NCBI RefSeq assembly: GCF_000003605.2
Contig: NW_003155740.1
Location: 513,110-554,557 of the forward strand
Direction: 5' to 3'
Origin: Saccoglossus kowalevskii
Lineage: Eukaryota > Hemichordata > Enteropneusta > Harrimaniidae
Length of the DNA stretch: 41,448 nt
How positions within the stretch are numbered: the stretch's first letter is position 1; every line of letters begins with the position of its first letter. The position numbers were made by a program, and so were the translations under genes. The notes beneath the pieces are model-generated. The model was not told where the DNA came from. It saw only the letters and a list, made by a program, of their open reading frames with translations, and did no database searches. Of the stretch, positions 690 to 39,460 are shown in pieces.

Positions 690-1480
690 TTGATTCACAC
701 TATATTGAACATCAAGATGTTAATATTTCAAAATCTCTTTGTCACAATACAAATGCTCCCTATCTTATTTCATTTTTCGCAACAATTTTCCTAATTACGA
801 AAAACGGTGATATGTTGTGAATTGTTCATCCCACTATGAATAGTTAGGTTGAATGGCGATAACACTGCTCTCCGCAGTTAAATAGAAAAAAAAAGTATTT
901 TACTTTTCCAGCAAAATTGTCTGCAATGAACAATTCAATTGGCCTTTTGGTGGAGGCGTTAAAGACACGTGGGATGTGGGACGATACGCTATTTATATTC
1001 ACATCTGACGTAAGTAATCAATTTCCGTTGTTACATTGAAAAGTGTTTAAAAGTGTGTCTGTTCTGTTCGTTTACTTTTTGTTGACTAGACTTTACAAAT
1101 GATTTTGTGATTTCATTCGAAATGTTATGAGATATTGTTGACCTCCCATTTGAAACCGGCTCAGATTGATCCTTCGTGGCTCAATGTCGGTTTGTGAATT
1201 GTTCATTTAAACATAATGGAGCGGCAGCGTCTACATCCGGGTCCAATTGGCCTTTACGGGGCACTATTGGAACACTTTTTGAAGGTTGTACTCCTATACC
1301 AACATTCTTCCATGGGAGTATGTTGAAAAAGACTGGATACGTAAATAACGAGTAAGTTATAGGTATTTATAAAAGTCTTACATTGTTGCTCACGACTAAT
1401 TTTATGTTCCCTAAATATGCCACTATATGCAACCCGTCAAACTATCGTGTAAACTATATTTACTACTTGTCCGATAGTAT
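690..1480 (+). pseudogene. Sulfatase copy C, relic of exons 10-11
   Basis: Exon 10 equivalent is 912-1009 (98 bp) and exon 11 equivalent is 1215-1351 (137 bp), the same lengths as in copies A and B. The frames are open and encode the 'FIFTSD' segment followed by '[16 protein letters not shown]'. The exon 10 acceptor (ttttccag) and both donors (gtaagt) are intact. The acceptor before exon 11 reads 'taaacat' where copy B has 'taaacag', so the invariant AG is lost. The expected 'EGGTR' reads 'EGCTP'. Flanking intron sequence matches copy B from about 690 onward. Exons 1-9 and 12-16 are not present nearby. This is a truncated, non-functional relic of an arylsulfatase B-like gene. Confidence 0.85.
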
Positions 1481-6308: not shown

Positions 6309-7130
6309 ATCAAAATGTCGGGCATATTCGTATCTGTCTGAAGCATTGACACGAAATATCACTATACATCAAAAAAAGCCGACACCATATCATGCAATAT
6401 GTTTGAAAACAAGATGCATGCAGATCAAAATAGAATGCTCTGCCTCTCACGAAGTTACATATATTGTTTTTATTAATAGGTATAGCAAAAGCTGTCATAA
6501 CGTCTATCAAATATCAAGTCACAATATACAGTATGTATCAACAAATATGGCCAGACCAACCAAACGAGGTGGCAGTGGTCATAATTTATACAAATTTAAA
6601 AATGTAATATACTCTCAGACATGATATAGAAATTCATGGGTTTGTATTTATTTGTCTTCATGTGAAACTTGAGGTATATATCGGTACAGTTATTTGTAAG
6701 TGATTTAATCTCACCACAATGCTGAAACATATCACTTTTTCGCTAGAAATATTACATTAGTGCTAATCTAGACTAAACAACAACAATTGCTACAGATTGT
6801 GAGTAGTCATAGCCTCTATGCAGTTCACAGTAAAATTCATCAGTTTCATCCCTGATGTCATATGATTTGTATAAAGGTCCTAGAACAATTTATGAAAGCA
6901 AAGTTGGGAAAATGACATATTCAAATGGAGCATTCTGATTGGTCGAGAATCACAAAGTAGGTTTTAAGTATCGGATGAAGCTAGACTATCAGGATTTCTC
7001 TTTGATATAAATTATTTGTAAATAAATAGAACAATATGCATTTATATAGTCAGAAAAACAGTATCTATTCAACCTCATGACCCTATACATGTCATTGCAA
7101 GAGGGAACAACGCATTACACTGTTACTGAG
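6309..7130. repeat. Tandem duplication, second copy
   Basis: Diverged partner of 5545-6304. Shared phrases include 'agccgacaccatat', 'gcattctgattggt' and 'actagactatcag' / 'gctagactatcag'. No terminal inverted repeats or poly-A tail that would name an element class were seen. Confidence 0.8.
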
Positions 7131-9293: not shown

Positions 9294-12200
9294 ATGCGTT
9301 TAGCCTGTTCAATACTGGTAGCACTTGTGTGTGTAAGTATGTCATATGTATATAGGCTCGTGTCTTATGTTAGTTGATGTATTCGACATTGTTATTTGAA
9401 ATTCCCGCAATATGACTTCCATCAACATGAACACCGTAAATAGTGGTGAATACATGGATGAGATCGCTAATGATGCAGAATAATGTCACAAACTATATAT
9501 TTATTTTTGTATTGCAGGTGAGTGTTGTTAAATCAGGTAAGACGTGTACATAATTTGAATCTATTCTCAAAACGTTTTCCGTTTTTCAAACTACATACAT
9601 GTGCATAGTACATTCAGAGTTTACATATTCACATGCTCACCTTCTTCCTTCTAATTACTGTTAATTTCAAAACGTAATATCTATGAGGTACAATTAATGA
9701 ATAATAAGTATTTATTCAGTAAGCGAGTGTGGAATGTGGAATGTGGAAGTGGAATGTCGAATTTGTATACCTTTCGATCTTTATCACTGTTAAAACCATT
9801 CCCATACGATGTTTATTTTAAAATTTTCGCCACCAACATCTTCCCTATTTCGATTTATGGAACCGAAATCTGAGACTTCCAAAAATACGACCACTTAGAG
9901 CGCGTTCGTCTCTTGGCTTGCAGATCATTTCTTGGTGTTTCTGTGCGTGCACCAAACAACAGCATGCTTGGTGAATATGGACAATTCCCCACATTTCAGC
10001 ATACTGCAAAGCCTTGGGCGAAATTATAATATGTATGCCCAATACACGTTATTCAAACAAATACTACAATATGCTATACAATATTGAACAGTCAGGTAAT
10101 ATGACGAGACATAAATGTTGTTAAAAATGTACTTTTAACTTGTAATATAACTGAGGTTTGGTTTCCACAGAAAGTTAGCAATGTAAATGAATTTATTAGT
10201 ACTTTAATGACAAGGCTTAAGGTTCTTTTAACTTATGAGTGGCGGACAGATATCTGTTTGTTAGACAAACTAGAGACAGATTGTCACTTTAAATCTACCC
10301 TTGAACCCCATCACATTGCCTAAGAATATAGACCAGCACCTATCCGAATTTTGTGATCTAAATGTAATTGAAAATGATTTCTATTTTTTACTTGTATGTA
10401 AGTTTAGAAGGAATGCCACTGAAGTATTATTGTAACTGGGTAAAAAGAATATTCTTGTGATATGTACTAACCTTTTTGGTTCGATGGCCTTTTTTCTGGT
10501 AATAAAGATCCGATATAAAAATCGAGATTTACGGCCATTGTCATTGCATATTACAGCATATGACATGATGGCATGTGTACAAATCATCAGTTAGTTGCTG
10601 GCTATTTAGATGTTTCATATATCTGGTAGCGTCGCTTATGTATGGGCTTCGAATACAAAGACAACGTTCAGCACACCATGAATGTGGTCAAACCCATTGA
10701 CGGTGCTGAACATGACATTGCACGTAACGTAAATTTCGATTGACCTCACTGTGATGACGCATGCGTTGTGGAATACGAAAAAAGAGACCGAAGCATGCGC
10801 ACTGCGTACACAATATGCTAATGACCTTTAACGATAGTATGAAGTAGACATATTTCATGAATATTAATTGAAAATTCGGTCTTGACCCCCACTCTGTCTA
10901 TTGTGGTTATTTGAAGACTGTAAACGCTTTCTATCATACTAAACTGGTCACCAAATTTAACAACTACATTTTCATTTTCATTTCACATTGAAATCTAAAT
11001 GAGCTACAGCAAGCAGGCTCCGAGCCTATTGTCAGAAAATCATAGTATCAGTAGGAGATATATACTGGCTAAATAAAAATAGTATTAATTATACCTTAAC
11101 ACCATTTTCGGCTTTGCATGATCTGTAATTTCTATAAATCATTCAATAAAACAAACACAGTGACGTTGGTGTTAAATGTTAAAATCTTAAAGTGTTTACC
11201 ATCAGAAACTCTGAGGATCGAAGACAGAATTGAAAAAAAAAATGCACAAGAAACGTGAAACCATAACCAAAACAGATGAAACTATTCTTCACGCCTAAAT
11301 CTTGGGGTGGGAATTATTCCACAAAATATAAAATTATAGCAAATTCAACACAAAAATAAATGGTCAATTGATACTTAATCAGTAAGGAAATAATGAAATT
11401 AATTAATTAGTTAGTTAGTTAATTAGTCATGTTCATTAGTATAATCAGACAATATAAACAAATGTTTAATTTGGTGTCGTTAATTAATTTCTTTATCAAT
11501 TAGAACTCGGGTACCATATTTTTAATAAACAGAATAAATTCATAAGAGCCCCCAGCGTTTCAATGAATAAACGTTATGAGTACGTTTTAACTTATTAAAT
11601 AACAAATGTTTTACTATTCACATTAACAAAGGTCTATAGAACGATTGATTTTATATCTTGCACTCTTCAGTGAGCAGAACGTAGTTAATCATACATACTA
11701 GCTTTGGACAGAGACGACATTAAAATAATGAGGTTGTACACAAGTTTTATTTCGAATTGATGATAATAGATTTACCCGAATCACACATTGTGTTTCAAAT
11801 TATTTAACATTTACAATAATTCTCGAACATAATTAAGTTAGAAAATGGCTATACATTACATGCACATCGCATTAAAGCGTTTAATATTTCATAGTTCACA
11901 GGTTATTCAAGTTGCCATCTGCTGAGAAACTAACATAATGATTATCTTATATATTTGTATTAAATCTAACAACATGATAACGAATGGAAAATATAAATTA
12001 ATTATCCACCTTACGTTCAGGAACATTTCAGGCAAATTAAATCTGTAACGTTTTATTTCAATAAATAAATTTTCACAATACATCGCTATTATCATGCTCA
12101 TCAATTGTAATAGTGAGTGGAAGTAGAAAGTTACTATTAAAGTGTGTTTGAAAAAAATTAACACGGTTACCTCTATCGTCCGCTACATTAACTGACACTT

Positions 12201-15200
12201 AGTAATTCAAAGATCAACTCATACATATTTGCGTATATACGTAATTGTAAACCAGTTTGATCTGCTTGAAGTGATTACAACATTACATATAAACCTCTCA
12301 AATGTGACACTGTTTCAAAAAACATTGCGTCACGGAACGTGACTGCCGCCCAGTCATACAAAACTCGTAATTGCATGTGACAACCATTTGAAAGCATGAC
12401 TTTGTTATCACAAAAGCTTCTATGGTACACTTTTCATGTACTAAAGTACACGTATTATATAAACCATATTCGGTATCACTCAAAATGGTTCAAATATCGA
12501 TGGGCCTGGCGTTAATCTTAATCTCAGTACACAACAAGGCAAACAACAACTTAGCACGCAGTTTATAGTTGCCTTTCGGCATTATATGACATTGTTTACA
12601 AGTTCGGATTTTTGTTTTAGCGATACATCGAGAAAAAAAGTGTGGTCAATTGACACTAACCAGGGCCCTGCAGTCTACAGCTAATCTTACCTCATTTTTT
12701 TCTTAGTGTGTAGTGAGATAGTAAATTACTATACAAAATAGTTAAGTTTCATTTGTAAAATATCAGACTGAAACGTCTAAACTGTTTGTATACAAGAAAC
12801 AGTTACTTGGGTTTTCTGTCAAAAACACGAATCAAATGATTTGCCATTCAGATCAGGATTAAGGGCGTACTTATTTTCCTGGAAGAATTGTTTTGAACCA
12901 GGGTCAAACCATTGCTACGTTTACACGACAGCATTTTATTAAAGCCCCACGGCTCGAGCCAGCATAAATGGCCGTGTAGTCGCGTTCGGCTCGAGCAAAG
13001 CTCGGTTCGAATCTACCCACCGGGTTGAACTCCAATAGGGTTGGGCCACGACATGCAGGCTCACACTTCATTGAACATCATACGAAGCCAAATTTATTGC
13101 TGGATTATATAAATGTCAAACAAAGAGCGTTTTTAAACATATTTATCATGTTATTAATTATATAAATTGAAAGGAGAACTTTTTAAAAAAACTTTAAAAA
13201 CAGGATGACTTAAAATTAGATTTCAATTAACACTTTTGATGTGCAACTATATTATTTGCTTCATCATTAGATAAACAACCACACATTGTTCTAATACTAG
13301 CAGAGGATCTTGGGTGGAATGACGTAGGATGGCACAACCCGGATCTCAAGATGCCCATCCTCAATCAACTCGCCGCTGACGGCGTTATATTCAACCAATC
13401 ATACGTCCAGCCTGCATGTACACCGTAAGTGACAAGACATGTAATGTTGTCGGTATGTAGTTACAGATTGTACAGTCAACTTCACTATCAACAAATCACC
13501 TGTACATCTGTTTAATTATGTTTTGCATGTATGTTTCATTCTTCAGATCAAGATCTGCTCTATTTACCGGTTATTATCCGTTCAAAATTAAAAGACAGGT
13601 AATTTGTTTATTGGAACACAATTATCTGTATTTTTGTTGACATATGTTTGTCTGCAATTTAAATCTAAGATGTTCATGTCCAGCGCGCACTATGTACTCC
13701 TTTATACACTGTTCATTTTCCTATACGAATATGTTTTAAACAATGTCAAACTATATATTTCAGGAAAGTGATTAATTCACACTAATTGATATTTGGTCTT
13801 ACGTTGGATGCATCCAGTTGCAATTGTGTTTTAATGTTAAATGGCGGCCTAAAACATGCTTTTTCAATTATATTATAAGTATTATGAGTGATTTCACCAT
13901 ATCTACAACCTCTGAAACAAGTGAGAGAATCTGATGACTGCAACTCATTACAGAGATAATTTTGACCTCAGAACTAGAACTAGGATGTACACTAGTTTGC
14001 CCATTGAAAGATGAACAGTGAGGCTATTAATAACTGGTTACTTAAATGGTCAAACCAATTCATGTGACCAATGTGTGACTCCATTTTTTGACTGGTAGGC
14101 ATCTAAATATGTTCTAAAATTATGTTATACTTAATTGTGTAAAATTTCTTAATGTGATTGTCAATTTTATCACAGTTTTGAGTATGATTAACTTTTTCCT
14201 TGGAATAATTATATATAGCTATAGATTATGTATGAAAAACCTTTAAATTTTAGTTTTTTATTATTAATTACAGCATCAAATGCTGCTTAACCTTGAAGCT
14301 GACGGGCTTTCATTAGATCTTAAGACATTGCCAGAAATGTTGAAAGATGTCGGGTATCTAACTCATCTTGTTGGAAAGTAAGTAGACTGCAGAACACATC
14401 AGATGAGTTTAAAAATGTAGGGTAATTTGCTGCTGTGATTATGGGAATGCGAAATCAAAATACATATCAATTTCTTAGAGACGCGCCTGGTGTTATGTAG
14501 TAATGTTGACCAACAAACGAAAGTATGTCCAGCATAACTAAAGTATTTACCAAAAACTATAAAAGAAGAATCTCAATGATATAAATAGGTTTCCAGCACG
14601 TTAATTACGATATATATGGCAATTATAATTGCTAATTGTTTTAACAACAATACGAGGTTTTTTAAGAAAAAAACTTATGCTTCACACACGTTACTGTATT
14701 AGGTACATATATATATAAAGTACACAATTTCAGATCAATGTGATTAGCAGTTTCTGAAGTTGTTTATTTATGGTAGTTAATATAAGTTAATATATTCATG
14801 GTAGTTAATATAAGAATAGTGATTATACAATTATTACAGATTGTCTAGGTCCCTGATGTGTGGCCGCCGGACTATGTCGATGATGCAAATTTTGGAAGTC
14901 AAGTACAATAATTCATATTAGCTCCTAGACATTGAACATAGAACCTCACCGCTCAAGGGTTTTTTCAAATAAGATAATAATAGTAATCCCCTCATATAAC
15001 ATCTTAGATCCATAAATATAGTGTGATGTATAGAAGATCTATATGAAACAGATTTGTGGAGTAACGGAAGTGGGTAGATAACGCCTATATAAATACAACC
15101 AACAATCTGTCACCTGTTTGTGTCTAAATGTTAAATAATATATAACACAATCAAGTGCGTATGATTTTATTCGTAGATGGCATTTAGGATTTTGTAAGGA

Positions 15201-18200
15201 GGAGTATCTTCCAAATAAACGTGGCTTTGATTCTTTCTATGGATGGCTGACATTGGGAACCGATCTATATACTAAAGAGAATGTACTTGGTAAGTACAGT
15301 AACATATGAGAAAACAGTATTGGACTGCGAACAACAGTATACAACTATTGTAAAGTCCGGTAAATATACATCTACACAAAAACAATGTCTAGTCTTCAAA
15401 AACACATTTCTTATTGCGAGCTTGGTCTTCGACTTTTGACTTTTTAAATACAAAGTCCGAAATATTGTTTTCATCACTGTGTTGTTTCGCTTTCCATTTA
15501 ATATTAGAATGTTTTTAGTTGCCAGTACGGTTTTGTCTTGGTGCATTTTAGCACGAGTTGTGCAATATGACTAGATCAGTGCTTTGGTAAAATTTGAATG
15601 TTTTATCACAATATTCGTGTTGATATAAAACAACCATTCTAATAAGACCTTGCCTGTCAGTACACAATTTCTGACCTGTTTCCCACACAGTTACCAAAAC
15701 TTCACACGTTTTTAATTTCATCTTTTAAAACCAGTTACAAATTTGTGAGTCAATCTCATATGTAAGATGAATTTAAAAATATTTCGTGCATTTAGTTTAA
15801 AATCTTACATAAAACATGTCTTATTTTAACATTTTGATTCTCAAAGTTGTAATGGAACATGTATATTTATCTGCAGTGCTGCAGTTCTGCAGTTATGTGC
15901 CAGTATATTAAAAGTATCTTATCAATTTATTGCCAACAAGGCCAATGTAGTTTATATATTGTTTTACAACATCTTCAGTTCATGGTTCGTCGATTTGATC
16001 TGTATGGGGTTTTTGATTATGGTCTTTTTTTCCCGTTCTAGCTCCGGGGTATGATTTCCGCGACAACACGGGAGTGGTACAAGAAAGTGACACTTATCTC
16101 CCAGTGAGTATCAGTGTTTTGTCTCCTTGGTTACAAACTTATGTCAACGCTCCGAATTTATATAACACAATGTTTGCAAATGGACAATTTTATGAAGTCA
16201 AAGTTGCTATAACCTCGGTCTTGGTCTCTCTCAATCGGGGTCGATTTTGATGATCCGATAATTTTGCCACAATATTTATCGGTAAAAAAATATAACCATA
16301 TTTTGGGAATTTTGGGTTGTAATGAACACTTTTACTTTCTTATACTTTGTTTGTCAAGAATAATATCATTATATTGTACTTTGTTTTATTTCTTTGCTTC
16401 TTTACAGTTCATGCTTGCTGAAAGAGCAGTAGATATAGTAATGGGACATTACAAGGAATATCCACTATTTCTTGAGTTCAGTATGGCCTTACCTGGAAAA
16501 TTTCTTGAGGTAACCTACTTATTATTTGGGTATACACTAGACTACCGACAATGGTAAAATAATCTCGAATTAGATATATCAGCATAAATTCAGCAATTTG
16601 CGCAACCCAATACAGAAGACAATCAACATTCTCCTACGTGTGTGTGTGGTTATTCCTCCTAGGTACCACAGGACTATGAAGATTTATATTCCGATATCGA
16701 TGATGATCGAACAAGGAAATTTTATGGTATTTGTAATTTAAACATCGTTGTATCTAAGAACACTAAATTACCGAATCGTAATAAAATAATAACATGTGGT
16801 ATAAAACGCTGAAGGGGATGATATGTAAAATCTGCCTGGACCATCGAACCAAACTTTCGTCAAGTATTGTTATAATTTTCAGATTTTAATGTCAAAAATC
16901 CGTTATATACAAGGTTTTTCAGCAGTGTGAAGTCTTTGGCTATTCTGTTATCAATAGGCATTTTTTCTAATCATCATCAATAAAAAATGGATGCCATGAT
17001 AATGTAGTATACATGTTATATGCTACAAAGGTTTACCGTGTAACCCGTCAAATATAGGCCACTAAGTCCATACCTAATTTACATATTTAGGTTTTGAAAA
17101 TAAAGAAAGTTGATACATTATTCAACATTTAGAAAGGAACACCATGTATGTAGCATTCCATTCTGAAATGTCTGCTTACAACTCTTCCGATAGTGATTTG
17201 GATTATAGCACGATCTTTAAGCCAAAAAGCTTTCTTTTGTGTTTGTGTTTTGATGACTGTTGCGCAGATCAACGAGTACAAACTAAGACGTTGCCAAGCT
17301 TTAATTAGGTATTTTTTAAGTGATTTGAAGCAGTCACGGGCGGTATTTAATGCAAGTCGCGCCCAGGTCAAACCACATACTTGTAATTTATATTAGAAGA
17401 GCACATTAGATTATGGGAAAAATCAATAGTTATCAACACAAATGTCGCACTGGGCGCAGCGCGACGTCTACCGCCCTTTAAGAACAGCTAAAGAGGGAAC
17501 ACGTCTTAATGAGCAAAACCCGAAAACCAGATAGATAACGTTTTGCGAATTCAAAAGTACACTAAATAAACCAAATTTTAATTTGATTTACCAGTATTTA
17601 ATCAATTGTTAACACCTTAGCTATGTATTGGCTGTGTATTTAATTGATTTAGCTTTTGGGCGAACTTTAGCTAACTGATAACAGATGTTAAAAACGTGCG
17701 CAGATTTTACTAAAGCCGATATGAGTAATTTATTCATACTATCCTGAGCATCAGTATGTAATATTTCGAAATCTCACTGTTTCTTTTTCAGGAAAGTTGT
17801 CTGCGATGGACAATTCAATTGGCCTTTTGGTGGAGGCGTTGAAGACACGTGGGATGTGGGACGATACGCTATTTATATTCACATCTGACGTAAGTAATCA
17901 ATTCCCGTTGTTGCAAATCTAATGTCTAATAGTCATTGAACAGGTTTTAGTATGTCAGTGATCACTTCGTTTTTGTTTCATTGGCTTGAATATTTTTTTT
18001 AAATGTTACGAAATATTTTTAGTTTCTCATTTTAATCAAAGGAAAGATTCAAATTGATCTTTTATGATACAATTTTCGTTTGATAATTTTCATTGATACA
18101 GAATGGAGCGTTTGCAACGGAATCCGGGTCAAATTGGCCATTACGGGGTAATATTGCAACATTGTTTGAAGGCGGTACTCGTGTACCAACATTTTTCTAT

Positions 18201-20419
18201 GGGAGTATGTTGAAGAAGGCTGGATACGTAAATAACGAGTAAGTTACTAGTAGTCAATCACAGTCGTACATTATTGTAACGACTGATTTTTCCGTAAATA
18301 TGCCATTATTTTCAACCCGTAAAACTAAGCTATATTTAATACTCGTCCGATAGTATCGCGTTATTATGTTGTGGGGCTATTTTATATAAAGTAGCTTTGG
18401 TCAATTTAATGTATAAGGTAGTCAACATCAGTTGCAATATGAAATAGTTGCTGAGCAATTCAAAGAACTTTTATTAACTTAGATTTTGTTGTATTGTCCA
18501 TACAGTGTTAATGAAATCATTACATTGCTATTTGAAATACATAATCAAAATACGTTTTGAATTTTTGGAGCCCACCTATTCTGTCGGGTAATATACACTA
18601 AATTGTAAATTGGATGTAGCTAATGCCGAGAACTTCAATGGGCTACTCAACTAATATTTAGATCATTTTATTTAAAGCTAATTTATTCTTTGAAAGCCAA
18701 CTGACAACAATTTCCTAGTGGACTAACGTTGCGAATCCAAGTAGTATTGAAATTAAAAATAGTATTTTCTGCATATATATAATGGTCATGTTATCTAATA
18801 TTGACACAAGTGGAGTCTGGACATTTTCATTTGTTTCATATTTCAGGTTAATTCACATTGTCGATTTGCATAAAACAATAATTGAATTGGCTGGAGCTAC
18901 AACTGGTGAGATTTTTAAATTATTTCAAATTACGGTATTCCATTGCAGGTCACTTTAACTATAGCTGCTATAATCTGCATTGTATTGTACTTGACAGAGT
19001 CTGATATTGATGGTATGGATATGTGGAAGACAATCTCAAAAGGTGAACCATCGCCAAGAACGGAATTTGTATATAATATCGATGATAACGAGTTGTCCCC
19101 TGGTGCTGCCATCAGGTAAGCGTTAATACAATGTGCATATATATGTGTGGGTGTTACTGCAACTATGATTAAATTTGGTTAGTAAACTTCCAACATAGAA
19201 CAGACCTTCGAAACTATTCAAAATATGTCACGTTGATGACCCAGAGTTACGAAGAAACTGTATGTGCCGTCTGTTTGCCAGGTGTGTACTCGCGTATGTG
19301 CAAGTGTCGTACATAGAGGCGTGTTTTAACGCCATCACATTTAACTGTCATTTTGGTTGCAAGATAAATAATAATACTATGTTTCATTCAATGATTGTAG
19401 GGTCGGGGATTATAAACTCATTACAGGACATCCGGATTTAATGTATCCATTTCGATTGTTGAACAGATCAGGTAAATATGTTTTATTATAACTCATTGAA
19501 TCCAATATGCAGAAAGATTGGCTAAGGCTGGTATACTGTGAACCCTGAAGGTCATGAATTTGTAGCTCTGTATTTTAATGGTAATCACATCATCTAATGT
19601 ATGACAACGTATGGTATTTCAGATGATTGGTACAACTATGGTGACGAACCTATTAGCGGGATTCTCCTTCCTCCAACTGGAAATGAACCACCCCCAGCAA
19701 ACGTGACATACTTGTTCAATATCATAGGTATGACTGATGTAAGCTGGCCATGTATGGCTTGAGTTCGACGATTATCGCGTTTCATACATAAACTGTGTAT
19801 CTGTTTTTTTTCTCTTTTAAAAAGCGGAAATAATCTTCGAAGGACAATTCAGAAAATATCATGTGTAGCTCGCAGAAACATTTGGAGAATGATCCATGCT
19901 GTATCCAATCGAAATCTTACCAAGGTGACAGGCGTCAAGAGCCTTGTCACATTTACTATCAAAGCGAGGTCAAAGAATTATGCAGCATAAATTTAACAGA
20001 TGTTCATGTTTGTAACAAGATTGTAGTAAAAGTATACACTTCCAGATGAAAGCGATCACTTACATATAACCTGTTTTTTGGGGATTAATATGACATCTGC
20101 TTTGACCTAAGGTTGTACGCACATAATCACTTCCAAAACACATTTCCCATGATATCTGAAAGTTGTATATTGTGCGAATAATGTTATGTACTATATCATA
20201 AAATTTACACGTCATTTAATAGCAAAATGCCTTTCTCTCAATGCAGATGATCCTGAAGAAAGAAATAACCTCGCGGACGTTTATCCAAACAAAGTAGAAG
20301 AGTTACGCCATCGCTTGGACGAATACCGTGAACATCTAGTCCCACCAGAGAGCCGAATTTTTGACCCATCCGGTGACGCCGTGAATTTTGGTGGCGTTTG
20401 GTCGCCTGGCTGGTGTTAG
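9294..20419 (+). CDS. ARSB-like: Arylsulfatase B-like protein, copy A (16 exons)
   Basis: Exons: 9294-9332, 9518-9536, 13271-13424, 13547-13598, 14274-14377, 15177-15289, 16042-16103, 16408-16509, 16663-16726, 17792-17889, 18102-18238, 18847-18905, 18998-19115, 19401-19471, 19623-19727, 20247-20419. Every intron is GT-AG and phases agree, giving 489 residues. A hydrophobic N-terminus ([12 protein letters not shown]) fits a signal peptide. Sulfatase landmarks: AEDLGWND at 30-37, CTPSR at 69-73 (Cys69 would become formylglycine), GKWHLG at 122-127, TSDNG at 267-271, EGGTR at 292-296. N-glycosylation sequons occur at N395 and N424. The family hydrolyses sulfate esters in the secretory or lysosomal route. 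Gapless alignment with ARSB places Gly211 at the active-site His and Ile287 at the second active-site Lys, and Glu31 at the first metal Asp. Sulfatase activity is therefore doubtful despite an intact frame. Length is slightly below ARSB, lacking a short loop around residue 155. Confidence 0.93.
9518..9536 (+). CDS. ARSB-like: 19-bp micro-exon 2 of sulfatase A
   Basis: Flanked by 'attgcag' and 'gtaagac', it encodes VSVVKS plus the first base of the next Asp codon. Copy B has the same 19-bp exon at 35685-35703 with the same splice sites and encodes VIVVES. Conservation of so short an exon in both copies confirms that it is real. Confidence 0.85.
9537..13270 (+). other. Intron 2 of sulfatase A
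   Basis: A 3.7-kb intron, AT-rich, with no nested gene I can support. Its 3' part holds a tRNA-derived SINE-like sequence (12945-13080). A 9-bp inverted repeat (GTTCAGCAC / GTGCTGAAC) lies near 10665-10710. The corresponding intron in copy B is only 1.4 kb and contains a different insertion. Confidence 0.7.
12945..13080 (+). mobile_element. tRNA-derived SINE-like sequence
   Basis: An A-box-like TGGCCGTGTAG begins at 12969 and a B-box GGTTCGAATCT lies at 13014-13024, at tRNA spacing. The T-stem flanks do not pair, so this is not a functional tRNA. It is probably the head of a tRNA-derived SINE. A related head occurs at 22890-23130 on the same strand. Confidence 0.5.
13271..13598 (+). CDS. ARSB-like: Exons 3-4 of sulfatase A: formylglycine site
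   Basis: Exon 3 (13271-13424) encodes the first core strand with the metal site, where the usual Asp-Asp pair reads Glu31-Asp32. Exon 4 (13547-13598) supplies the rest of the signature, so CTPSR is split across an intron between the two bases CC and A of the Pro71 codon. Formylglycine-generating enzyme recognises CxPxR, which is intact. The same split is found in copy B. Confidence 0.9.
14378..15176 (+). other. Intron 5 of sulfatase A
   Basis: Noncoding, AT-rich; begins gtaagt and ends ttcgtag. No nested feature recognised. Confidence 0.6.
16727..17791 (+). other. Intron 9 of sulfatase A, with dispersed repeat
   Basis: Contains at 17388-17620 a diverged copy of a sequence also present at 22501-22668 ('caatagttatcaa' followed by 'caaatgtc', and 'tttgatttacca'). 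The intronic copy has an extra segment of about 45 bp (from about 17446) absent from the other. No gene is supported. Confidence 0.6.
17792..18238 (+). CDS. ARSB-like: Exons 10-11 of sulfatase A: DNG and EGG motifs
   Basis: Exon 10 ends in the Asp and exon 11 begins with the Asn of the metal-binding DN pair (Asp269, Asn270). Exon 11 then encodes WPLRG and EGGTR. Between these, the position of the conserved substrate-binding Lys holds Ile287. These two exons are also the only ones kept in relic copy C, where the Ile is the same. Confidence 0.88.
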
Positions 20420-24009: not shown

Positions 24010-24835
24010 ATACAGCAGCAACCAAGCAAGTTAGGGTCAAACATGGTTTGGTTGAATAGATTGAACGGGTTAATGTAGCAAGTTAGGGTTAATCATGGTT
24101 TGGTTGAATAGATTGAACAGGTTAATGTAGCAAGTTAGGGTTAATCATGGTTTGGTTGAATAGATTGAACAGGTTAATGTAGCAAGTTAGGGTAAATCAT
24201 GGTTTGGTTGAATAGATTGAACAGGTTAATGTAGCAAGTTAGGGTTAATCATGGTTTGGTTGAATAGATTGAACAGGTTAATGTAGCAAGTTAGGGTTAA
24301 TCATGGTTTGGTTGAATAGATTGAACAGGTTAATGTAGCAAGTTAGGGTTAATCATGGTTTGGTTGAATAGATTGAACAGGTTAATGTAGCAAGTTAGGG
24401 TCAATCATGGTTTGGTTGAATAGATTGAACAGGTTAATGTAGCAAGTTAGGGTTAATCATGGTTTGGTTGAATAGATTGAACAGGTTAATGTAGCAAGTT
24501 AGGGTCAATCATGGTTTGGTTGAATAGATTGAATAGGTTAGTGTAGCAAGTTAGGGTTAATCATGGTTTGGTTGAATAGATTGAACAGGTTAATGTAGCA
24601 AGTTAGGGTTAATCATGGTTTGGTTGAATAGATTGGACAGGTTAATGTAGCAAGTTAGGGTCAATCATGGTTTGGTTGAATAGATTGAACAGGTTAATGT
24701 AGCAAGTTAGGGTCAATCCTGGTTTGGTTGAATAGATTGAACAGGTTAATGTAGCAAGTTAGGGTTAATCATGGTTTGGTTGAATAGATTGAACAGGTTA
24801 ATGTAGCAATTTAGGGTCAAAAATAGTCAGGTTTA
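24010..24835 (+). repeat. 52-bp minisatellite, about 15 units
   Basis: The phrase 'gtagcaagttagggt' recurs every 52 bp from about 24020 to 24810. Units are nearly identical; the main variation is ggttaatc / ggtcaatc, with a few private changes (gaacgg, gaatagg, attggac). The edges (24835 onward) decay into degenerate units. The homologous inverted region at 2760-2995 has only a few degenerate units, so the array expanded on this arm after the duplication. Confidence 0.95.
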
Positions 24836-36163: not shown

Positions 36164-37500
36164 CTAGGATGGCATGCCAACAGGACATATGTCCTACAAT
36201 ATTGTTGCAATATTGGTGGAATACATTTAAATACAATTACGATATTCAATTGCTAATTTTTCAATGGTCACCGGTATACAAGGTCAAGCATCAAGGATGA
36301 GAGAAAATAACGCACGAAAAAGTTAATGTTTTATATAGAAATTGGCTACCTACATGACCAGCAAGAATCAAATTGACCAGTATTAAAATAGTAAAAATTG
36401 TCATGTCTATCAAAAATCACAATAAATATGTATCTTCAAATATTACCGAAGTTAGACCAGTGAAACAAGGTGACAGGGATCGCGATTTATACAAATTTTA
36501 AATTTTCATATGCTGTTGGTTGAAATTGATTTGTGTGAGATTTTTGTTTACACTGTAAGTTTGAGTGAGATCGACATGAGTTATCGAGTGATACTGTATA
36601 TTGTGTGTTATATCAGTGAGTATAGAAATTAGTGCTTTTGTTGTAAATGTCTTGTTCTTTTCAACTGACTTTTAACAGAAATGCGGAATTGGACTTGGTG
36701 TAGACTGTGACCACAATTCAAATAACAGGGTATTTGGTTCGAGGTTTAATACTGTGTATACAACAATCTGATATTTTAGTGTAACTCACATGCAAAGACG
36801 TACATTGTGAAGTTAACTGAGTTGAATCGATTATTGTGTATTCTTGCTCCACTCTAACCAATAGATATTGTAGATATTGTGTTTGTCAAAATGTTTCAAA
36901 GGATGAGAGAGAAAAGAGAGCTAGGGAAAATAAATATGCTTTGGGAAAACAAAACGCCTTCAGGTGATAATACTGTAAAACATGTCTTTTCGCGAGCATG
37001 TCTTTTTTCGCGAATTTAGCGAGAGAATTGATTCGCTAATTCAGGATGACGCCAATGGCTTTATTATCAATTCAAAATGACCGAAAAGAGAGATTCGCTA
37101 AATCAACATTTCGCTATTACGTCATTGTACCACAGTTCGCTAAAATTGTATGCCGCTTTTTCAACATGATTTACAGTAGTTAATTTAGTTAAGTGGGTAT
37201 GTGTAACCTGAGGTTATATGCAGCATGGTAATATAACCTTGTTATTGTACAAACTACCAAAACATTGCTTGGTTCGGCGAGTGATTGTCATTAGTAGACT
37301 TGATGGCGGATCCATTATTTACTAGCGGACTAGCAACAATTTGCCATGTTTACGTAATGCATGATCTTTCATGGCATGATCGCATCTGGTTATTTTAGGA
37401 ATGTTGGCCTTTAGGTGTTATGCAGTGTGAGAATGCACCTGCTTAAAAAAAATGGAGCAATGAAAGGGAATCAAAGTGTGAATAAGCAAAATATTCTCAA
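36164..37500. repeat. Duplicated block, copy 1
   Basis: Matches 38394-39460 in the same orientation (offset about 2.2 kb), from 'ttgctaggatg' through 'gcacgaaaaagttaatg', 'gtgacagggatcg' and 'gttaatttagttaagtggg' to 'agtgtgaataagcaaaata'. It differs by a TA-flanked MITE (36973-37176), by an extra 37228-37455, and by lacking about 75 bp and about 170 bp found in copy 2. No gene is recognised. Confidence 0.8.
36973..37176. mobile_element. 204-bp MITE with TA target site
   Basis: Ends are CTGTAAAACATG and, inverted, CTGTAAATCATG (11 of 12 match), flanked on each side by TA. The paralogous block at 39350-39365 reads 'gataatagttaattt' with no insertion, giving the empty site. TA duplication and short inverted ends fit a Tc1/mariner-type MITE. 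The inside is rich in 'ttcgcta' and 'cgcgaa' motifs and has no ORF. Confidence 0.75.
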
Positions 37501-38393: not shown

Positions 38394-39460
38394 TGAGTGC
38401 CAACAGGACATATGTCCTACATATTGATGCAAATAGTATTTTGAGGTCGGCTGTCAATTGGAAGATTGGATGTACGTCATGCTATATTGATGCAAACATT
38501 GGTGGAATACATTTCAATACAGTTACGATATTCAATTGCTCATTTTTCAATGGTCACCTGTATACAAGGTCAAGCATCAAGGATGAGAGAAAATAATGCA
38601 CGAAAAAGTTAATGTTTTATATAGAAATTGGGTACCTGCATAACCAGCAGGCATCCTTAAAAAATGATGCTTATTATAACATTTAAAATCAAACACTACA
38701 GATTTTTTTTAGAATTCAAGATGGTTCAAAAATATTAAGCCAATAAAAATAAATGTCCTACAACCATTGGAAATTGTTGTAGATCGAATTAGAATATTTT
38801 TCCGCCCGGTATTACCCATTTGGTCCAATTGACAAGTATTAAAATAGTAAAAATTGTCATGATGTCTATAAAAAATCAAAATAAATATGTATCTTCAAAT
38901 ATTACCAAAGTTAGACCAGTGGAACAAAGTGACAGGGATCGTTATTTATACAAATTGTATATGCTTTTGGTTAAAATTGGTTTGTGTGAGTAAATGTTTT
39001 ACACTGTAAGCATGAGTGATGTCGACATGTGTTGTCGAGTGAGACTGTATATTGTGTGTGATATCAGTGACTATAGAAAATTAGTGCTTTTGTTGTAAAT
39101 GTCTGTGGCCACAATTCAAATACCTATTTCGTTTGAGGTTTTACACTGTGTATACAACAATATAATATTGTATCCTGCTTATTGTAACTTACATGCAAAG
39201 ACGTACATTGTAAGTTATCTCAGTTGAAACGAGTATTGTCTCCACTCCAATAGATATTGTGCTTGTCAAGATGTTTCAAAGAGAGAGAGAGAGTAGATAA
39301 AGTAGAGAGATAGCAAAAATAAATATGATTTGGGCAAACAAAACGCCTTCAAGTGATAATAGTTAATTTAGTTAAGTGGGTATGTGTAACCCGAAGTTAT
39401 ATGCAGCATGATCATGAAGAAATGAAAGAATATTAAAGTGTGAATAAGCAAAATAGCACA
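38394..39460. repeat. Duplicated block, copy 2
   Basis: Partner of 36164-37500. Near its left end 'ttgatgcaaa' recurs at a short interval, a small internal duplication. It carries about 170 bp (roughly 38654-38826) absent from copy 1, and lacks the MITE of copy 1. Confidence 0.8.

Follow-up and report, generated by a model that had tools for sequence, protein, structure and literature searches.

Copy A, a sulfatase-family gene of Saccoglossus kowalevskii, encodes an arylsulfatase-B-like protein in which both of the residues that bind sulfate in the enzyme are replaced, and the same positions are altered throughout nearly all of an expanded clade of related genes in this genome. The best, as yet unproven, reading of copy A from its sequence is that the product is a pseudoenzyme. 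For the clade as a whole, we favor, with a probability of roughly 0.5, a sulfatase-derived family whose hydrolytic activity would be absent or very weak and whose members may serve as binders, decoys or antagonists of sulfated polysaccharides.

Copy A and its neighbors in the window

The DNA analyzed here (the window) is a stretch of 41,448 nucleotides from contig C4507; the genome searched for relatives comprised 572 Mb in 4830 contigs. Copy A has 16 exons spanning 9294-20419 of the window, all of its internal exon borders are AG/GT, and its 489-residue product is free of internal stops, in agreement with the initial annotation, which had described a full open frame. That annotation had placed the locus at 13271-18238; these positions coincide with the first base of exon 3 and the last base of exon 11, and the whole gene is larger. 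Within the window, no ORF of 120 or more residues was found, as is expected from the short exons, which are separated by long introns. The exons of copy A, together with two further sulfatase-like copies (B and C), are as follows.

9294..9332, + strand, copy A exon 1: 13 residues, start of the likely signal peptide (counterpart in copy B, 35849-35811)
9518..9536, + strand, copy A exon 2: VSVVKS, likely end of the signal peptide (counterpart in copy B, 35703-35685)
13271..13424, + strand, copy A exon 3: Glu31 (13303-13305) at the position of ARSB Asp53; Cys69 of CTPSR
13547..13598, + strand, copy A exon 4: SRSALFTG
14274..14377, + strand, copy A exon 5: its end falls inside the Lys codon of GKWHLG
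15177..15289, + strand, copy A exon 6: WHLG
16042..16103, + strand, copy A exon 7
16408..16509, + strand, copy A exon 8: Gly211 (16495-16497) at the position of ARSB His242; Lys212
16663..16726, + strand, copy A exon 9
17792..17889, + strand, copy A exon 10: last residue is Asp269 of the metal pair
18102..18238, + strand, copy A exon 11: Asn270; Ile287 (18153-18155) at the position of ARSB Lys318
18847..18905, + strand, copy A exon 12
18998..19115, + strand, copy A exon 13
19401..19471, + strand, copy A exon 14
19623..19727, + strand, copy A exon 15
20247..20419, + strand, copy A exon 16: includes the stop codon
27135..35849, - strand, copy B: 16 exons, inverted relative to copy A
912..1009, + strand, copy C: exon 10 remnant
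1215..1351, + strand, copy C: exon 11 remnant, with Ile at the Lys318 position and AT as its acceptor

By reading of the sequence, the first two exons of copy A (19 residues) likely encode a signal peptide; a hydrophobic N-terminal stretch is present in both copy A and copy B. The sulfatase domain (Pfam PF00884) was matched by copy A at 158.3 bits, against a curated cut-off of 25. As first described, copy A retains CTPSR (residues 69-73), which conforms to the C/S-x-P-S-R formylglycine motif, as well as GKWHLG (122-127) and the Asp269-Asn270 pair.

Copy B carries the same three pocket replacements as copy A, as had been claimed, and a further change of WHLG to WNLG (His147 to Asn). Its exon 5 lacks 1 nt relative to that of copy A, resulting in a frameshift and a stop just ahead of the WNLG motif; its exon 6 has 3 nt more than the counterpart in copy A, and its exon 15 has 9 nt fewer. 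Copy C consists of exons 10 and 11 alone (912-1351), and here too the earlier observation of a shared Ile (in RGTIGTLFEGC) holds. The 3′ flank of copy C (1084-2928) is collinear, in inverted orientation, with that of copy B (30278-24761), but lacks the part in which B carries exons 12-16. An internal deletion in a B-type copy would thus seem to have given rise to copy C.

Some other features of the window were also recorded. An array of 15.2 copies of a 52-bp unit (97% matches) lies at 24025-24817, and the 2 kb that contain it are strongly GC-skewed (0.30). A block several hundred bases long, possibly a mobile element, is repeated at 36209-36972 and 38495-39361, with pieces 84-93% identical and about 2.3-2.5 kb apart; a fragment at 6553-6613 is 75% alike to it. 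A Pfam comparison of ten open fragments, out of many, gave no match, and neither did a comparison of the window with Rfam at gathering scores.

Both sulfate-binding residues are replaced in copy A

The nearest solved structure to copy A is arylsulfatase B (ARSB; PDB 1fsu), matched by phmmer in two stretches (343 bits, E 2.6e-101). In this alignment, which is free of gaps from before Gly211 to past Ile287, Glu31 (GAG), Gly211 (GGA) and Ile287 (ATT) are placed against ARSB Asp53, His242 and Lys318, respectively, the same three correspondences that had been proposed in the initial annotation. The roles ascribed to these positions also hold: in the residue table in the accessible part of PMC4014121, Asp53 is a metal ligand of ARSB, and His242 and Lys318 bind sulfate. 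According to the portion of PMC5066984 available, the His is conserved in 99%, the Lys in 96% and the first Asp in 96% of 4058 formylglycine sulfatases.

Copy A therefore has Gly211 in place of the sulfate-binding His of S1 sulfatases (99% conserved) and Ile287 in place of the sulfate-binding Lys (96% conserved), and without His242 and Lys318 it does not carry the full ARSB pocket. As for the four calcium ligands, Asp-Asp-Asp-Asn, copy A has Glu-Asp-Asp-Asn; all four are present in its relatives on contigs C2543, C166, C1967 and C2048. Ordinary ARSB-like genes are found elsewhere in the same genome.

Relatives of copy A elsewhere in the genome

When copy A was compared with the whole genome, at least 92 exon matches were obtained. 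At least 20 of the copies of exon 3 are close (51-93% identity), with two on C4507, three on C3655, eight in an array on C843 (51-72%) and others on C367, C2543, C1967, C166, C3897, C2602 and C2048. Exon-3 matches from the ordinary ARSB-like genes are 38-49% identical to copy A. Exon-by-exon models were built for the ten close loci that lie on the eight contigs other than C4507 and C843; the pocket counts below cover these ten together with copies A and B and, for the Lys, copy C.

The exon order and phases of the modeled relatives are those of copy A. In five loci (A, C3655a, C367, C2543 and C166) the frame runs from exon 3 through exon 16 to the stop codon without an internal stop, and each of these five has lost both the His and the Lys. 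The open frame covers exons 3-13 in C1967 and exons 3-12 in C2048, in each case reaching almost to the contig end. A script made the initial splice-site assignments, and the exon 6/7 borders of C166, C2048 and C367 were then set by hand; the script's model of C166 contained a stop where exons 6 and 7 join, and the hand-set borders gave open frames in all three. The C367 model uses one GC donor. Exons 1 and 2 were modeled in copies A and B only, and exon 1 also in C3655b and C3655c; a search for exons 1 and 2 of C3655a, C367, C2543 and C166 did not find them. C3655b and C3655c are without later exons in the stretches read, and the C2602 sequence runs into N. At exons 3, 8 and 9 of C3897, a search over 12 nt did not turn up an AG acceptor in phase.

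Pocket residues across the clade

Pocket residues were tabulated from an alignment anchored on copy A, with each count covering the loci that span the site. The position of His242 is Gly in A, B, C3655a, C3655c and C367, and Ala in C2543, C166, C1967, C2048 and C2602; the His is thus lost in 10 of 11 loci, on eight contigs, the exception being C3897, which keeps it. The position of Lys318 is Ile in A, B, C, C3655a and C367, and Ala in C2543, C166, C1967 and C2048, so that the Lys is lost in all nine loci, on seven contigs. Given that these sites are 99% and 96% conserved among sulfatases, replacement on so many contigs exceeds chance. The Asp53 position was more variable: among 12 loci, six have Asp (C2543, C166, C1967, C2048, C2602 and C3897), five have Glu (A, B, C3655b, C3655c and C367) and C3655a has Gln.

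The remainder of the pocket is largely kept. The formylglycine Cys (Cys91 in ARSB, Cys69 in A) is present in 11 of 12 loci, with Ser in C3655a; the Arg (Arg95; Arg73 in A) in 12 of 12; the Lys (Lys145; Lys123 in A) in 9 of 9; the His (His147; His125 in A) in 10 of 12, with Asp in C367 and Asn in B; and Asp269 and Asn270 in 9 of 9 and 8 of 8, respectively. Also, the residue that follows the lost His (Lys212 in A) is Lys in 11 of 11 loci; the ordinary paralogue C3824 likewise has Lys there. C3655a combines the change of the formylglycine Cys to Ser with that of the first metal Asp to Gln, yet its frame is uninterrupted between exon 3 and the stop codon, as is that of C367 with its His147-to-Asp change. 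Residues such as Trp40, Asn42, Cys129 and Ala272 are invariant in the lineage and absent from the three to six ordinary paralogues that cover those columns.

Among the ordinary ARSB-like genes, represented by short loci only, the His is kept in 3 of 3 (C2107, C201 and C3824) and the Lys in 3 of 3 (C4733, C2107 and C201). Two of them differ at other sites, with Gln at the Lys145 position in L018 (C4733) and Glu at the Asp54 position in L020 (C2966). In more distant sulfatases, the Lys is kept in L002, L006-L009, L014 and L026, and is Val in L001; the C3460 rows (L001-L003 and L017) are gapped at the His position. Contig C2176 holds a separate cluster of sulfatase matches (L004-L010, L012, L013, L015, L022 and L024) in which the Asp pair, the Cys and the Lys are kept where aligned; L005 has His at the Asn position, and L004 gave no row.

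It is very improbable that copy A is an ordinary active sulfatase in which the losses are an artefact of alignment or assembly. The alignment with ARSB has no gap between the flanking conserved stretches, the His is lost on eight contigs and the Lys on seven, and ordinary paralogues align with both residues under the same procedure; no observation in favor of an artefact was made.

A weak search of bacterial genomes with part of copy A yielded four loci, none of which has the Gly/Ile pair. In the best match, L051 (Akkermansiaceae, 32%), the Lys is retained and a His is displaced by one alignment position; L052 (23%) could not be read at the pocket; and L053 and L054 cover the later part only, with no Lys at the Lys318 position.

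History and selection

A maximum-likelihood tree (LG+G4) was inferred from 17 partial sequences, 12 from the lineage and five from ordinary genes; ordinary genes with fewer than 120 aligned residues (C1948, C2966, C3824 and C1938) were left out. The lineage was separated from the ordinary genes with 100% ultrafast bootstrap support, on a branch of length 0.75. Because the replacements of His and Lys are common to loci on eight and seven contigs, respectively, and the clade split is fully supported, both losses are most simply placed on the branch leading to the lineage, and are most likely ancestral to a retained, expanded clade. The initial annotation had dated all three replacements before the local duplications; this fits the His and the Lys. 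Glu31 does not belong to the ancestral change, since Asp is kept at that position in 6 of 12 loci; judged by this distribution, it is a later and partial change inside the clade.

Two loci complicate this history. C3897, which keeps the His, groups with C1967 at 98%; this grouping and its missing acceptors lead us to take the copy as broken and its His as having arisen late, parallel loss in the other loci being the less probable alternative. C367 has Gly, Ile and Glu as in A, but groups with C2602 at 76%, and gene conversion or parallel change is therefore possible.

Pairwise Nei-Gojobori analyses, in which each value averages both branches of the pair, show purifying selection on copy A and its relatives: dN/dS was 0.09-0.64 over 36 pairs of nine lineage genes. 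When copy A was compared with eight relatives, dN/dS was 0.09-0.52, and nonsynonymous changes were fewer than synonymous changes per site in each comparison (p from 1.6e-5 to 1.1e-16); against copy B, the 437 codons that remain once the break is excluded gave 0.23. The highest value, 0.64 for C3655a versus C2048, also carried the weakest sign of constraint (p 3.5e-3).

These values bear on whether the clade consists of relaxed, decaying copies without a role, of which copy A is simply not broken yet. Copies B and C are broken, C3897 looks broken, the later exons of C3655b and C3655c are missing from the stretches read, and the 0.64 of C3655a versus C2048 points the same way. However, five loci have an uninterrupted frame between exon 3 and the stop codon, C1967 and C2048 stay open to near their contig ends, and all eight comparisons of copy A with a relative give a dN/dS well under 1. 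We regard decay as improbable.

Discussion

Both sulfate-binding residues are gone in a clade that is selected and amplified, and further losses are found in genes that remain open; hydrolysis is thus likeliest no longer what selection keeps. In the explanation that we favor, an arylsulfatase-B-like enzyme would have been the source of the expanded clade, the proteins of which are probably secreted or endolysosomal, and the clade ancestor most likely lost both residues (His242 and Lys318 in ARSB). Little or no catalysis would then remain, and the fold and metal site that are kept, with the basic residues Arg73, Lys123 and Lys212, may still dock sulfated glycans. The proteins could act as binders, decoys or antagonists of sulfated polysaccharides, much as heparanase 2 stands to heparanase 1. 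By this analogy, binding of sulfated glycans would be the natural role that remains. Some observations count against a binder: retention of Cys69 (11/12), Arg73 (12/12) and His125 (10/12) is more than a pure binding role seems to need; the Lys after the lost His (11/11) could take over sulfate binding, although the ordinary C3824 has this Lys too; and C3897 has His at the lost position.

Retention of Cys69, Arg73 and Lys212, with that of Lys123 (9/9), Asp269 (9/9) and Asn270 (8/8), would be expected of an active but altered hydrolase in which formylglycine forms, and in which Lys212 and local changes rebuild a site for sulfate or phosphate esters with a new specificity. In the 4058-sequence survey, so far as its available portion goes, Lys is the main replacement of the His, in ten sequences (PMC5066984). 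However, in this clade both sulfate-binding residues are gone together, the Cys is lost in C3655a and His147 in C367 with frames otherwise open, and the phosphonate monoester hydrolase BcPMH, which is looser elsewhere, keeps both the His and the Lys in the accessible part of PMC4014121. We consider such a hydrolase unlikely, though it deserves more weight than decay. As doubtful as decay is a scheme in which a glycosaminoglycan sulfatase gave rise to a clade of formylglycine-bearing, sulfate-recognizing proteins. Their aldehyde might have been kept for something other than hydrolysis of esters, for instance to capture glycans that are sulfated or carry amines, in a covalent or lectin-like manner, and Lys212 would be a new residue of the pocket.

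Several known systems resemble copy A or its clade in part. Copy A resembles ARSB (1fsu; PF00884) over nearly its whole length, including CTPSR, GKWHLG, the DN pair and the C-terminal region; the lineage differs by Gly or Ala for His242 (10/11), Ile or Ala for Lys318 (9/9) and, in a subset, Glu for Asp53. Heparanase 2 belongs to an enzyme family other than the sulfatases. It (HPSE2) is a non-catalytic duplicate of a glycosaminoglycan-acting enzyme, for which a non-catalytic function gained after duplication has been proposed, as stated in the accessible part of PMC12406646; HPSE2 is one gene, whereas here we infer a function for a large clade. Nine planctomycete and lentisphaeral sulfatases have been suggested to be inactive through loss of a positive residue of the catalytic signature (PMC5066984, in part); these are bacterial, and the lost residue, which we read from that text as the Arg of CxPSR, is kept in 12 of 12 loci of the present clade.

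In sea urchins, an arylsulfatase has a role in the extracellular matrix. Molluscan arylsulfatase B-like families resemble the present many-copy clade in the number of transcripts per species: in a triton snail, 29 further arylsulfatase transcripts are listed for one salivary-gland region and 36 for the other in the accessible part of PMC5519703, which differs in giving no pocket residues. Altered members of the sulfatase family seem to be little described, and a search of the literature on sulfatase pseudoenzymes, inactive sulfatases and arylsulfatase expansions, most subscription journals being outside it, found no such clade. A clade kept and amplified despite replacement of both residues would show that the sulfatase fold can be recruited to another job in animals, and its members would be natural variants for testing what the pocket needs for formylglycine formation and sulfate recognition.
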